Assembly (NCBI RefSeq): GCF_900091605.1
Contig: NZ_FMCQ01000003.1
Span: 370,495 to 434,494 of the forward strand
Source: Micromonospora tulbaghiae
Lineage (GTDB): Bacteria > Actinomycetota > Actinomycetes > Mycobacteriales > Micromonosporaceae
Reading direction: 5' to 3'
Length of the DNA stretch: 64,000 nt
Position numbers and translations under genes: made by a program. The notes beneath the pieces are model-generated. The model did not search any database, was not told the origin of the DNA, and saw nothing but the letters and a program-made list of their open reading frames with translations. Each line of letters opens with the position of its first letter. Within the stretch, counting starts at the first letter, position 1. Below, one piece after another: positions 34,477 through 61,342 of the stretch.

Positions 34477-34512
34477 ATGTCGTCGAACCGGTCGCCGCGA
34501 GTACTTACCTGA
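34477..34512 (+). CDS. Putative ilvB leader peptide
   Basis: An 11-codon frame encodes MSSNRSPRVLT and stops at the foot of the first leader hairpin. Val and Leu codons sit next to the stop, where a stalled ribosome would cover the hairpin. An in-frame GTG at 34453 would lengthen it to include further Val and Leu codons, but would start before the predicted transcript. The role in attenuation is inferred from position, the two hairpins and the downstream ilvBNC operon. Confidence 0.5.
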   Translation: MSSNRSPRVLT

Positions 34513-34569
34513 GCGCACTCTCCCACCGAGAGTGCGCTGGCCCCGTGCATCCTGCACGTGGGCTTTTTT
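34512..34569 (+). promoter_or_regulatory. ilvBNC attenuator (two hairpins, U-tract)
   Basis: The first hairpin has a perfect 11-bp stem (AGCGCACTCTC 34512-34522 with GAGAGTGCGCT 34528-34538). The second, about 34540-34563 (GTGCA/TGCAC core flanked by GCCC/GGGC), is followed by six T at 34564-34569, a classical intrinsic terminator rare in this GC-rich genome. It sits 84 bp before ilvB, so it must be read through for expression. This is the architecture expected for branched-chain amino acid attenuation. Confidence 0.7.
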
Positions 34570-46219: not shown

Positions 46220-46780
46220 TCAGGCCCCGGCGCCGGCGAGGAGCGCGTTGGCGTCGAGCGTCGCGCCGCCGGAGTTCCAGTTGCACGGGCACAGCTCGTC
46301 GGTCTGGAGCGCGTCGAGCACCCGCAGCACCTCGGAGACGTTGCGGCCGACCGAACCGGCGGTCACCATGGCGAACTGGATCTCGTTGTTCGGGTCCACG
46401 ATGAAGGTGGCCCGCTGCGCGACACCGTCGGAGCCGAGCACGCCGCAGGCGGAGGTCAGCTCACGCTTGATGTCGCTGAGCATCGGGAAGGGCAGCTCGC
46501 GCAGGTCCGGGTGGTCCTTGCGCCAGGCGTAGTGGACGAACTCGTTGTCGACGGAGACGCCGAGCACCTGGGCGTCCCGGTCGGCGAACTCGCCGTTGAG
46601 GCGGCCGAACTCGGCGATCTCGGTCGGGCAGATGAAGGTGAAGTCCTTCGGCCAGAAGAACACGACGCGCCACTGGCCCTCGTGGGACTTGTGGTTGATC
46701 GTCTCGAACGCCTTGTCGGCGTCGAGCGACACGCAGGCGGTGAGTTCGTACTCGGGGAAGTGGTCACCGACAGTGAGCAC
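46220..46780 (-). CDS. ahpC: Peroxiredoxin AhpC
   Basis: AhpC reduces hydrogen peroxide, organic peroxides and peroxynitrite. The 186-residue protein has peroxidatic Cys51 in FTFICPTE and the resolving-type cysteines Cys164 and Cys166 near the end (DELCPCNW), as in the three-cysteine actinobacterial form that uses AhpD. The GTG at 46780 is preceded by AAGGAGG. The 5' leader includes a perfect 9-bp stem (TGGCCCGGC/GCCGGGCCA, about 46797-46820). No oxyR gene is adjacent. It is divergent from cimA. Confidence 0.95.
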   Translation of the reverse strand: MLTVGDHFPEYELTACVSLDADKAFETINHKSHEGQWRVVFFWPKDFTFICPTEIAEFGRLNGEFADRDAQVLGVSVDNEFVHYAWRKDHPDLRELPFPMLSDIKRELTSACGVLGSDGVAQRATFIVDPNNEIQFAMVTAGSVGRNVSEVLRVLDALQTDELCPCNWNSGGATLDANALLAGAGA

Positions 46781-46969
46781 GGGTCCTCCTTGAGCGTGGC
46801 CCGGCAGCACCGCCGGGCCAGTAACTGGATCTGTTCAAGATTCTTCCGTAGGCCCGTTTGCGCTCGTGGCGGGCGTGCCCGGGTGTGAAGACGATCACCG
46901 GGCGGGTCGTCGTCCCGGAATATGGGTTACGCCTCCCAAAACCGGGGGCGGGGTGGCAGAGTACGGGTC

Positions 46970-47002
46970 GTGACCAGCTTCGTCCTGATCATTAGCAGCT
47001 AG
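46970..47002 (+). CDS. Putative cimA leader peptide (Val-Leu-Ile-Ile)
   Basis: A GTG-initiated 10-codon frame encodes MTSFVLIISS and ends in TAG. Four consecutive branched-chain codons (Val-Leu-Ile-Ile, 46982-46993) are exactly what ribosome-mediated attenuation needs. A CAGAGT at 46957-46962 could be a -10 box placing the transcript start at the GTG, so the message may be leaderless. A convincing -35 was not found. A stable hairpin and a terminator with a U-tract follow. Confidence 0.7.
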   Translation: MTSFVLIISS

Positions 47003-47061
47003 CGCGCCGGCCCTTCCCTCGCCGAGCGCGCAGACCTCCCGCATCCGCGGGGGGTCTTTTT
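47002..47061 (+). promoter_or_regulatory. cimA attenuator
   Basis: GCGCGC (47002-47007) pairs with 47026-47031, and GGC/GCC extends the stem. A terminator follows: AGACCTCCCGC (47032-47042) with GCGGGGGGTCT (47047-47057, one wobble) and five T at 47057-47061. It lies directly after the Val-Leu-Ile-Ile peptide and 34 bp before the cimA ATG. Stalling on scarce branched-chain tRNAs would be expected to favour read-through. Confidence 0.75.
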
Positions 47062-47094
47062 GTTTGCTCCCCAGGGCACGAGAAGAGGACTCCG

Positions 47095-48693
47095 ATGACG
47101 TTCCAGGTGTACGACACGACGCTGCGCGACGGCGCGCAGCGCGAAGGGCTCACGTACTCGGTGGTCGACAAGCTGGCGGTGGCCCGCCTGCTGGACGACC
47201 TCGGAGTCGGCTTCATCGAGGGCGGCTGGCCGGGCGCGGTGCCCAAGGACACCGAGTTCTTCCGCCGCGCCCGTACCGAGTTGGAGCTGCGGCACGCGAT
47301 CCTGGTCGCCTTCGGCGCCACCCGCAAGGCCGGCCTCGCGGTCGAGGACGACCCGCAGGTGCGCGGCCTGCTCGACGCGCAGACCCCGGCCGTGGCCCTG
47401 GTCGCCAAGGCGGACCTGCGGCACGTGGAGCGGGCGCTGCGCACCACCGCCGAGGAGAACCTCGCGATGATCCGCGACACCGTCTCGTACCTGGTGGCGC
47501 AGGGCCGGCGCGTCTTCGTCGACGGGGAGCACTGCTACGACGGGTTCCGCTTCGACCCGGGCTACACCTCCGCCGTGGCGGAGACCGCACTGGCCGCCGG
47601 CGCCGAGCGGTTCGTGCTCTGCGACACCAACGGCGGCATGCTGCCCTCCCAGGTCACCGCCGTGATCGAGGGACTGGTGGCGCGGACCGGGATCGCGCCG
47701 GAACGGCTCGGCATGCACGCGCAGAACGACACCGCCTGCGCGGTCGCGAACACGATCGCCGCGGTCGAGGCGGGCGTCCGGCACGTGCAGGGCACCGCCA
47801 ACGGGTACGGCGAGCGCCCCGGCAACGCCGACATCTTCGCGATCGTCGCCAACCTCCAGCTCAAGCTGGGCATGCCCGTCCTACCGGAGGGCTGCCTGGA
47901 ACAGATGGTGCGGGTCTCGCACGCCATCGCCGAGATCGCCAACATCGCCCCCGACACCCACCAGGCCTACGTCGGGGCCGCCGCCTTCGCTCACAAGGCC
48001 GGGCTGCACGCGAGCGCGATCAAGGTCGACCCGTTGCTCTACAACCACGTGGAACCCACTGTGGTGGGCAACGACATGCGGATCCTGGTGACCGAGATGG
48101 CCGGCCGGGCCAGCATCGAGCTCAAGAGCCGTGAGCTCGGTCTGGACCTGGCCGGCCATCCGGACACCCTGTCCCGGGTCACCGGGCGCGTGAAGGAACT
48201 GGAGGCCGACGGCTGGTCGTTCGAGGCCGCCGACGCCTCGTTCGAGCTGCTGGTCCGCTCCGAGCTGTCGGGCGCCGCGCCGGTCCGGCCGTTCGCGCTG
48301 GAGTCGTACCGGGTGATCGTCGAGCACCGCGAGGACGGCGCCGTGGTCTCCGAGGCCACAGTGAAGATTCGCGTACGAGGCGAGCGGGTGATCGCCACCG
48401 CCGAGGGCAACGGCCCGGTCAACGCGCTGGACGAGGCTCTGCGGGTGGGTCTGGCCCGCCACTACCCGGAGCTGCGCGAGTTCGAGCTGGCCGACTACAA
48501 GGTGCGCATCCTGGAGGGCAGCCACGGCACCGGCGCGGTCACGCGCGTGCTCGTGGAGACGGCCGGCGTCGGCCGCGACTGGACCACTGTGGGCGTGCAC
48601 CCGAACGTGGTCGAGGCGAGCTGGCACGCCCTGGTCGACGCGCTCACCTACGGCCTGGACCGGGCCCGGGTGCCGGGCGGGACGGCGGCCTGA
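47095..48693 (+). CDS. cimA: (R)-citramalate synthase
   Basis: CimA condenses pyruvate with acetyl-CoA to citramalate, the threonine-independent entry to isoleucine; LeuCD and LeuB then carry out the next steps. The 532-residue protein fits the long CimA group rather than LeuA. It has VYDTTLRDGAQREGLTYSV at the N-terminus, FVDGEHCYDGF, CDTNGGMLPSQV and the metal-site HAQNDTACAVANT, then the HKAGLHASAIKVDP motif and a C-terminal LeuA-type regulatory domain. The ATG at 47095 follows GAAGAGGA. It tail-abuts the convergent phosphatase-like gene with a one-base gap. Confidence 0.94.
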   Translation: MTFQVYDTTLRDGAQREGLTYSVVDKLAVARLLDDLGVGFIEGGWPGAVPKDTEFFRRARTELELRHAILVAFGATRKAGLAVEDDPQVRGLLDAQTPAVALVAKADLRHVERALRTTAEENLAMIRDTVSYLVAQGRRVFVDGEHCYDGFRFDPGYTSAVAETALAAGAERFVLCDTNGGMLPSQVTAVIEGLVARTGIAPERLGMHAQNDTACAVANTIAAVEAGVRHVQGTANGYGERPGNADIFAIVANLQLKLGMPVLPEGCLEQMVRVSHAIAEIANIAPDTHQAYVGAAAFAHKAGLHASAIKVDPLLYNHVEPTVVGNDMRILVTEMAGRASIELKSRELGLDLAGHPDTLSRVTGRVKELEADGWSFEAADASFELLVRSELSGAAPVRPFALESYRVIVEHREDGAVVSEATVKIRVRGERVIATAEGNGPVNALDEALRVGLARHYPELREFELADYKVRILEGSHGTGAVTRVLVETAGVGRDWTTVGVHPNVVEASWHALVDALTYGLDRARVPGGTAA

Positions 48694-60897: not shown

Positions 60898-60969
60898 TGG
60901 GGTATGGGGTAATTGGCAGCCCGACTGATTCTGGTTCAGTTAGTCTAGGTTCGAGTCCTGGTACCCCAG
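60898..60969 (+). tRNA. tRNA-Gln (anticodon CUG)
   Basis: A complete cloverleaf. The acceptor arms TGGGGTA (60898-60904) and TACCCCA (60962-60968) pair fully, with discriminator G at 60969. The anticodon arm is CTGA-TTCTGGT-TCAG with anticodon CTG, and the T-loop is TTCGAGT. No CCA is encoded. This species is present although GatCAB is also encoded nearby, so Gln-tRNA is presumably made by the indirect route. Confidence 0.95.
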
Positions 60970-61045
60970 CGCAGCCGCGGGTTCGCGAGAACCCTCGGAC
61001 GCTGGATTCCGGCAGCTCACGCTGACGGAGTGCAATGAAGGTTCT

Positions 61046-61118
61046 GGCCCCGTCGTCTAGCGGCCCAGGACGCCGCCCTCTCAAGGCGGTAGCGCCGGTT
61101 CGAATCCGGTCGGGGCTA
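61046..61118 (+). tRNA. tRNA-Glu (anticodon CUC), copy 1
   Basis: 73 nt; acceptor GGCCCCG (61046-61052) with CGGGGCT (61111-61117), with a G-U first pair and discriminator A at 61118. The anticodon loop is CTCTCAA with anticodon CTC. The T-arm is GCCGG-TTCGAAT-CCGGT. CCA is not encoded. An identical second copy lies at 61270. Confidence 0.95.
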
Positions 61119-61128
61119 CAGCACCGAC

Positions 61129-61155
61129 AGCCCGTCCCGTTTTCCGGGGCGGGCT
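61129..61155 (+). terminator. Terminator after first tRNA-Glu
   Basis: AGCCCGTCCCG (61129-61139) pairs with CGGGGCGGGCT (61145-61155) with one wobble, followed by TTTCTG. It separates the two tRNA-Glu units, implying separate transcripts or processing. Confidence 0.75.
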
Positions 61156-61269
61156 TTCTGCTGTCCTGGCCACGTGCGCAGGGGGTGGCCCCCCTCGGTG
61201 CTGCCGGACGGGATGCCGCTAGACTACTGCCACACCGCCCGGCAGGGTGGTGAAGCACGAAAAGTGCCT

Positions 61270-61342
61270 GGCCCCGTCGTCTAGCGGCCCAGGACGCCGC
61301 CCTCTCAAGGCGGTAGCGCCGGTTCGAATCCGGTCGGGGCTA
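61270..61342 (+). tRNA. tRNA-Glu (anticodon CUC), copy 2
   Basis: Identical to the copy at 61046-61118 over its full 73 nt; a recent duplication or ongoing gene conversion. It is followed by its own terminator hairpin at 61349-61385. Confidence 0.95.

Follow-up and report, generated by a model that had tools for sequence, protein, structure and literature searches.

A candidate isoleucine-responsive transcription attenuator with abutting hairpins upstream of the citramalate synthase gene cimA in Micromonospora tulbaghiae and other actinomycetes

The DNA just upstream of cimA, the citramalate synthase gene, raises three questions: whether it holds a regulatory leader, which amino acid such a leader would sense, and how it would act on transcription. 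We studied these questions in a 64,000-nucleotide stretch of the Micromonospora tulbaghiae genome (hereafter the window), for which the original prediction had proposed an attenuator that makes cimA sensitive to isoleucine, leucine and valine, built from a peptide, MTSFVLIISS, with four branched-chain codons, a stem and a U-tailed terminator. The peptide is indeed that of the upstream open reading frame (uORF) in this genome, and the stem and the terminator are in place ahead of cimA. The features that we assigned, in window positions, are as follows:

46954–46962, + strand: probable extended -10 element TGGCAGAGT, in which the hexamer CAGAGT (46957–46962) is preceded by TGG; assigned from sequence and mostly kept in the alignment
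46970–47002, + strand: leader uORF, GTG ACC AGC TTC GTC CTG ATC ATT AGC AGC TAG, encoding MTSFVLIISS and a stop; similar short uORFs lie at the same place in relatives
46988–46993, + strand: ATC ATT, an Ile-Ile codon pair with a putative regulatory role, 14 and 11 nt ahead of P1; assigned from Ile conservation and ATT codon bias
47002–47031, + strand: P1, a GC hairpin with its 5' arm at 47002–47011 and its 3' arm at 47021–47031; assigned from folding and covariation
47032–47065, + strand: intrinsic terminator T, a hairpin (47032–47057) followed by a T-rich tail; assigned from fold, pattern scan and covariation
47082–47089, + strand: GAAGAGGA, probable cimA ribosome-binding site, assigned by eye
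47095–48693, + strand: cimA, citramalate synthase, 532 aa (TIGR00977, 593.5 bits against a cut-off of 450)

Position 46957, at which the element had been predicted to begin, turned out to be the first base of the CAGAGT hexamer, the uORF itself beginning at 46970. Since this -10-like hexamer lies 7 nt ahead of the GTG, transcription probably starts at or beside the GTG, and the uORF is, judged from its sequence context, probably leaderless. The first base of P1 is the G of the uORF stop codon TAG, and the distance from P1 to T is 0 nt, such that the two hairpins abut; the original prediction named the stem but missed this placement between stop codon and terminator, on which the device centres. 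The 95-nt leader stretch folds as P1 plus T at -44.1 kcal/mol (z = -4.0; none of 200 dinucleotide shuffles was as stable), and an intrinsic terminator, i.e., a hairpin with a U tract, is predicted between the leader ORF and cimA. A terminator-pattern scan alone did not reach significance, with 1 site as against 1.1 expected from shuffles, and no curated Rfam model, T-box and riboswitch models included, matched near cimA at gathering score. The intergenic region is common to cimA and a divergent peroxiredoxin-like gene (46220–46780, - strand), which scores 134 bits with the AhpC model, below the cut-off of 272.

The attenuator-type leader is kept in relatives, as we found the element upstream of cimA in all 81 loci of a set that consists of the window and 80 genus-named relatives (Micromonospora, Verrucosispora, Salinispora, Phytohabitans, Virgisporangium, Catellatospora and one 'Micromonosporaceae bacterium'), the closest named relative being M. 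marina (cimA identity 97%). Conservation of codons and hairpins was the sequence-level check that the original prediction had named for itself, and the uORF, the Ile codons, P1 and T are all conserved. We then surveyed 61 genomes drawn from across the order and 98 drawn from across the class, which gave 51 order and 71 class cimA upstream regions (the order set includes five genomes from the window's own genus). Genomes that lacked a full cimA match, 23 from the class and 9 from the order, were left out before counting, as were two class cimA places at contig edges (G420 and G367). An exact pattern search across the phylum proved too strict, with only 3 of 296 genomes recovered, and therefore a detector and a covariance model, R1, were used instead. 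The detector requires an ORF with a stem at its stop codon or downstream of it, then a T-tract hairpin 0–6 nt further on, and at least one Ile codon 4–16 nt before the stem; its score favours small P1–T gaps, Ile and a -10 hexamer, and a rerun was made without the gap and Ile terms. Positive regions numbered 80 of 81 in the genus-named set, 34 of 51 in the order and 49 of 71 in the class (163 leaders), that is, 83 of the 122 order and class regions, while the same regions gave no positive as reverse complements (0 of 122) or as dinucleotide shuffles (0 of 366). Dropping the Ile rule and the gap penalty raised the number to 85 of the 122. The sole miss in the 81-locus set, L028, whose peptide ends in ALILSN, has a leader visible by eye. 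Similarly, six of the 39 order and class regions without a detected leader have an Ile leader by eye (L152, L153, L173, L178, L184 and L233), which brings the detector and by-eye leaders to 89 of 122. In the other 33 order and class regions we saw no leader either by detector or by eye, and in many of them the preceding sequence resembles, by its motifs, what may be the end of leuB or ilvE. An upstream open run of at least 74 codons, considered as a sign that cimA lies behind another gene, was present in 38 of 39 regions without a detected leader and in 68 of 83 with one, and was dropped as a weak discriminator. Among the detected leaders, a NANNNT hexamer 5–8 nt before the uORF start was present in all 80 of the genus-named set, in 31 of 34 from the order and in 46 of 49 from the class; these are upper values, since the detector's choice of start favoured a -10 hexamer.

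Searching with R1 gave matches in 60 of 61 genomes of the window's own family, a search nearly independent of the genomes used in building R1; cimA lay downstream in 10 of 10 fetched loci, three of them from genomes already sampled. R1 also matched at 57 of 75 cimA places in the class genomes, a figure that is partly so by construction because the 82 leaders in R1 include many class-sample genomes.

Next, we examined which amino acid the leader would sense. VLII-type peptides had been expected before cimA orthologues, and the Ile part of this expectation held while the full motif did not: VLII itself occurs in 31 of 81 loci, whereas adjacent Ile-Ile occurs in 78 and at least one Ile in all 81. 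A short ORF with codons for the end product, a feature of ribosome-mediated attenuators, is thus present throughout this set, its translation being putative. Among 78 distinct order and class peptides, which were taken from the detector run without the Ile rule and gap penalty, the residues encoded 4–16 nt before P1 are Ile in 114 of 228 cases, as against 13 Leu and 10 Val, numbers that do not bear out the predicted sensing of leucine and valine. At the position 11 nt before P1, 39 of 42 order and class peptides have Ile. Since only Ile is conserved among the branched-chain codons, we conclude that this would be an isoleucine attenuator, which fits cimA. The main Ile codon of the cimA leaders is the rare ATT, which makes up 148 of 158 leader Ile codons in the genus-named loci (as against 16 of 1203 Ile codons in the corresponding 80 cimA bodies) and 106 of 169 in the order and class loci (48 of 752 in 49 cimA bodies). 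We regard isoleucine-sensing attenuation as such at the cimA leader as very probable. That T is a constitutive terminator and the small ORF incidental, with no regulatory link between the two, is scarcely credible given that the uORF–P1–T geometry and the codon identity are both conserved. The leader Ile codons would, as far as sequence can tell, also lend independent support to the isoleucine role of TIGR00977 proteins.

Both helices covary. Of the 20 pairs, 14 showed changes in both partners across 82 diverse leaders (6 of 9 in P1 and 8 of 11 in T); all five covariation measures lay above every one of 500 shuffles, and the slid controls were all lower. In L053, which has the stop TGA instead of TAG, the partner base in P1 is changed too and the pair is kept. 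Outer P1 pairs 2–5 are near constant (the same pair in 82, 82, 81 and 75 of 82 rows), as might be expected if a trans-acting factor read them and the uORF were of little weight. A regulatory protein was proposed for the LEU element by Seliverstov et al., whose available text also states that mutated candidate codons in the Streptomyces coelicolor ilvB leader were without effect (PMC1262725), which counts against codon sensing. Nevertheless, the Ile codons near P1, the rare-codon bias and the target-matched codons of the sister elements described below point to codon sensing, and P1 of most leuS leaders opens with a different sequence, GCCGCG; we therefore hold a trans-acting reader of P1 to be highly improbable.

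The position of the uORF relative to P1 is consistent with gating by a ribosome. We distinguished two forms of the leader. In form A the ORF ends at the P1 base or directly beside it, and 79 of the 81 loci have the stop at the P1 base. In form B the ORF passes through the 5' arm of P1, coding RRAG, ERAG or RRVG, and stops inside P1 (10–16 nt into the hairpin in 6 of the 34 leaders from the order and 16 of the 49 from the class); in examples such as IIGRRAG and IIAERAG, each followed by a stop, the last Ile is still at a similar distance from P1. In both forms the last Ile codon begins 6–14 nt before P1, mostly 8 or 11, and with the stop at or inside P1 the geometry would fit gating by a ribosome. 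Within Catellatospora, L079 and L080 are of form B and have no stop at the P1 base, while L081–L083 keep it.

Based on these features, we propose that P1 is a ribosome-gated antiterminator. Transcription would begin at the leader start codon and a ribosome would load at the 5' end. With charged tRNA-Ile scarce, the ribosome would wait on the Ile codons just before P1, and P1, at the edge of the footprint or outside it, would fold and cimA would be transcribed (ON). With isoleucine plentiful, the ribosome would go on to the stop codon, situated at the P1 base or within P1, and cover the 5' arm; P1 would be opened, T would fold and transcription would end (OFF). With the footprint applied in the available text of PMC13236596, 26 nt with the codon at its centre, a ribosome on the last Ile codon would leave most or all of P1 free, and an advanced ribosome would cover its 5' arm. 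The sign of the response is taken by analogy from the Mycobacterium tuberculosis ilvB1 leader. According to the same text, that leader, which has LVVI codons, is induced upon inhibition of IlvB1, and its expression is low and uninducible when LVVI is changed to AAAA (PMC13236596). Provided that P1 is what stalling sets free, its folded state would be the ON state; we infer that the M. tuberculosis antiterminator is the equivalent of P1. Taken as the whole explanation, a ribosome-mediated, isoleucine-responsive transcription attenuator is, in our judgement, likely.

How would P1 keep T from forming? The distance between the two hairpins was 0 nt in 142, 1 nt in 19 and 2 nt in 2 of the 163 detected leaders, within a search range of 0–6 nt. 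Without the gap penalty and the amino-acid rule (n = 85), it was 0 in 62, 1 in 15, 2 in 5, and 3, 5 and 6 nt in one leader each. Even when P1 was extended outward, it did not reach into T in 161 of the 163 leaders; in the other 2 the overlap was 1 nt. By nearest-neighbour energies P1 and T coexist, and therefore folding energies alone predict no switch. Because the two helices share no bases, we propose steric blocking: P1, touching the base of T, would keep the lowest pairs of T open in the exit channel of RNA polymerase. This step comes from the geometry, and we regard it as a nearly balanced proposition, leaning slightly against. It is also at variance with the view, found in the available text of PMC8355165, that clusters of hairpins promote termination. 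In the literature searched, with subscription journals outside its scope, we found no description of steric antitermination by an abutting hairpin.

A classical attenuator would instead have a third helix that shares bases with T, either between a C-rich P1 loop and the G-rich 3' arm of T, as in Corynebacterium ilvB-II, or through an overlap at the boundary, as in C. glutamicum ilvBNC; pairings of these kinds are the published Corynebacterium models, as given in the available texts (PMC10272879; PMC11857589). We compared folds in 106 leaders, parsed out of 111 regions supplied. In favour of a third helix, masking the 5' arm of P1 brought the best fold without T to within 2.2–3.4 kcal/mol of T in L005, L016 and L081 and level with it in L105, the mean difference over the 106 leaders being 6.0 kcal/mol. 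Among ten leaders outside the genus-named set, however, this difference ranged from 0 (L105) to 12.6 kcal/mol (L089), so the alternative is not conserved, and the P1 loop varies among leaders in both sequence and length. Furthermore, with P1 free to form, folding without T cost at least 12.1 kcal/mol in every one of the 106 leaders; neither this folding nor the outward extension of P1 in the 163 leaders revealed a conserved antiterminator that shares bases with T. The sign would also be wrong, since such an alternative needs P1 open, which is the isoleucine-rich state. We consider a base-sharing third helix unlikely. Inspection by eye also led us to drop two other possible pairings, one between the uORF start and T and one between the P1 loop and the ribosome-binding site of cimA.

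The abutment of P1 and T could also be read in the opposite sense, with P1 helping T: tandem hairpins, or a pause stabilised by P1, would favour termination, and a ribosome that opens P1 would lower it. Adjacent hairpins have been reported to act jointly in termination (PMC8355165, available text). Such an arrangement, however, would turn the gene off under isoleucine starvation, and the ilvB1 leader of M. tuberculosis, which appears to be similar, responds with the opposite sign; it is, in our estimate, a decidedly unlikely account.

The element is not confined to cimA. In the 98 class genomes, R1 matched at 116 places, 57 upstream of cimA and 59 elsewhere, and 40 of these 59 were examined: they lie before 23 ilvB, 12 leuS, 2 leuA and 3 ilvA-like genes (targets assigned by BLAST against four reference loci, themselves identified with NCBIfam). 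The codons follow the target, with Leu 55, Val 47 and Ile 18 in the ilvB leaders and Leu 28 in the leuS leaders (11 of 12). The window itself holds one such sister element:

34477–34564, + strand: ilvB sister element, consisting of the uORF MSSNRSPRVLT and its stop (34477–34512), P1 (34512–34538) and T (34539–34564)

Here too P1 sits on the stop codon, TGA, and the terminator abuts it; the match to ilvB runs from about 34815 (G000:C10:405309). Over 46 ilvB leaders the distance from P1 to T was 0 in 31, 1 in 11 and 2–6 in 4, with a 1-nt overlap in 5 of 46, indicating that abutment is less strict in ilvB leaders than in cimA leaders. P1 also abuts T in three genomes of family f8 that have LVVI ilvB leaders (L158–L160). 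In two loci of family f92 (L259 and L262), the leader ahead of leuA has Leu codons and an intrinsic terminator, whereas the LEU element described for leuA has no terminator. The ilvA-like genes are those of three genomes of family f99 (L267, L272 and L273 in G388, G403 and G417), with the leaders MTVHEMAIT, MPLFLMVIT and MPQHLMVIT, each followed by a stop. Their best model is threonine ammonia-lyase, TIGR01127, at 277–282 bits, which is below the cut-off of 379, two of the three genes being incomplete in the stretch scored; the PALP domain is present. Since no cimA leader was detected in these three genomes (cimA regions L206, L215 and L216), the isoleucine switch may have moved between the isoleucine entry genes, cimA and, for the threonine route, the ilvA-like gene. 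More speculatively than for the steric step itself, we suggest that a separate type of attenuator could be common to the actinomycetes, whose antiterminator would lie flush against the base of the terminator and act sterically, with no competition for bases. It would be one architecture, of a leaderless uORF, a helix at or around its stop and an abutting terminator, with the codons swapped according to the target: Ile for cimA and the ilvA-like genes, Leu for leuS and leuA, and all three for ilvB.

Attenuation of branched-chain amino acid genes is known from several actinobacterial systems, which we compare here as they are described in the available texts. The M. tuberculosis ilvB1NC leader resembles the cimA leader in having a uORF with branched-chain codons, an intrinsic terminator and a stalled ribosome that leads to readthrough, and differs in the gene, in its Leu, Val and Ile codons and in its length of 166 nt; its authors describe the terminator and anti-terminator as mutually exclusive, and the correspondence of the latter with P1 is ours (PMC13236596). 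The 'fast' attenuator of C. glutamicum ilvBNC likewise has a branched-chain leader peptide, a terminator supported by mutations, and antiterminator and terminator adjacent at their bases. Its hairpins, however, overlap by a GCC trinucleotide which they exchange, and it additionally has an antiantiterminator (PMC11857589). No such boundary trinucleotide common to both hairpins is found in the cimA leaders, nor is the base-sharing of a textbook, trp-type attenuator, whose antiterminator takes nucleotides from the terminator, the overlap being 0 nt in 161 of 163. The Corynebacterium ilvB-II motif also consists of a uORF, a stem P1 and a terminator stem P2, but there the uORF spans most of P1, the antiterminator is proposed between the P1 loop and P2, and the motif is limited to the genus and to ilvB (PMC10272879). 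Seliverstov et al. (2005) described actinobacterial leaders of ilvB, leuS, trp and leuA, with short uORFs of amino-acid codons before ilvB and leuS as in the present survey; their available text leaves the mode of ilvB regulation unclear and does not describe an abutting stem on the stop codon (PMC1262725). Their LEU element of leuA is a pseudoknot in which Leu codons pair with the Shine-Dalgarno box and which has no terminator, whereas the cimA leader has a terminator and conserved Ile codons. Eight leader peptides, several of them leaderless, are described for S. lividans (PMC8079986), and the present element likewise precedes ilvB and leuS; cimA is named neither among these eight nor among the leaders of Seliverstov et al., as far as the available texts go (PMC8079986; PMC1262725). 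Literature that joins 'citramalate synthase' with 'leader peptide' concerned a methanogen only, in the parts accessible, and none was found that joins citramalate synthase, attenuation, isoleucine and Actinobacteria, subscription journals being outside the scope of this search. Attenuation is thus known as such, and cimA, in agreement with the original prediction, appears to be undescribed as its target in the searchable literature.

If our reading is true, the gateway of the citramalate route to isoleucine is under the direct control of charged tRNA-Ile across much of the class, and removal of the element would be a simple route to a deregulated supply of isoleucine precursors in antibiotic producers. 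The abutting, non-overlapping hairpins raise the question of whether a helix can switch off an intrinsic terminator with which it has no bases in common, and a steric switch, if true, could explain the apparently missing antiterminators of other actinobacterial leaders. In genomes of family f18, cimA is preceded by the peptide MLSFATIIGSRRAGPQ or close variants of it, and the ilvB leader peptide is identical to that of S. lividans. Finally, three clustered tRNA genes lie at 60898–61342 (+ strand) of the window.
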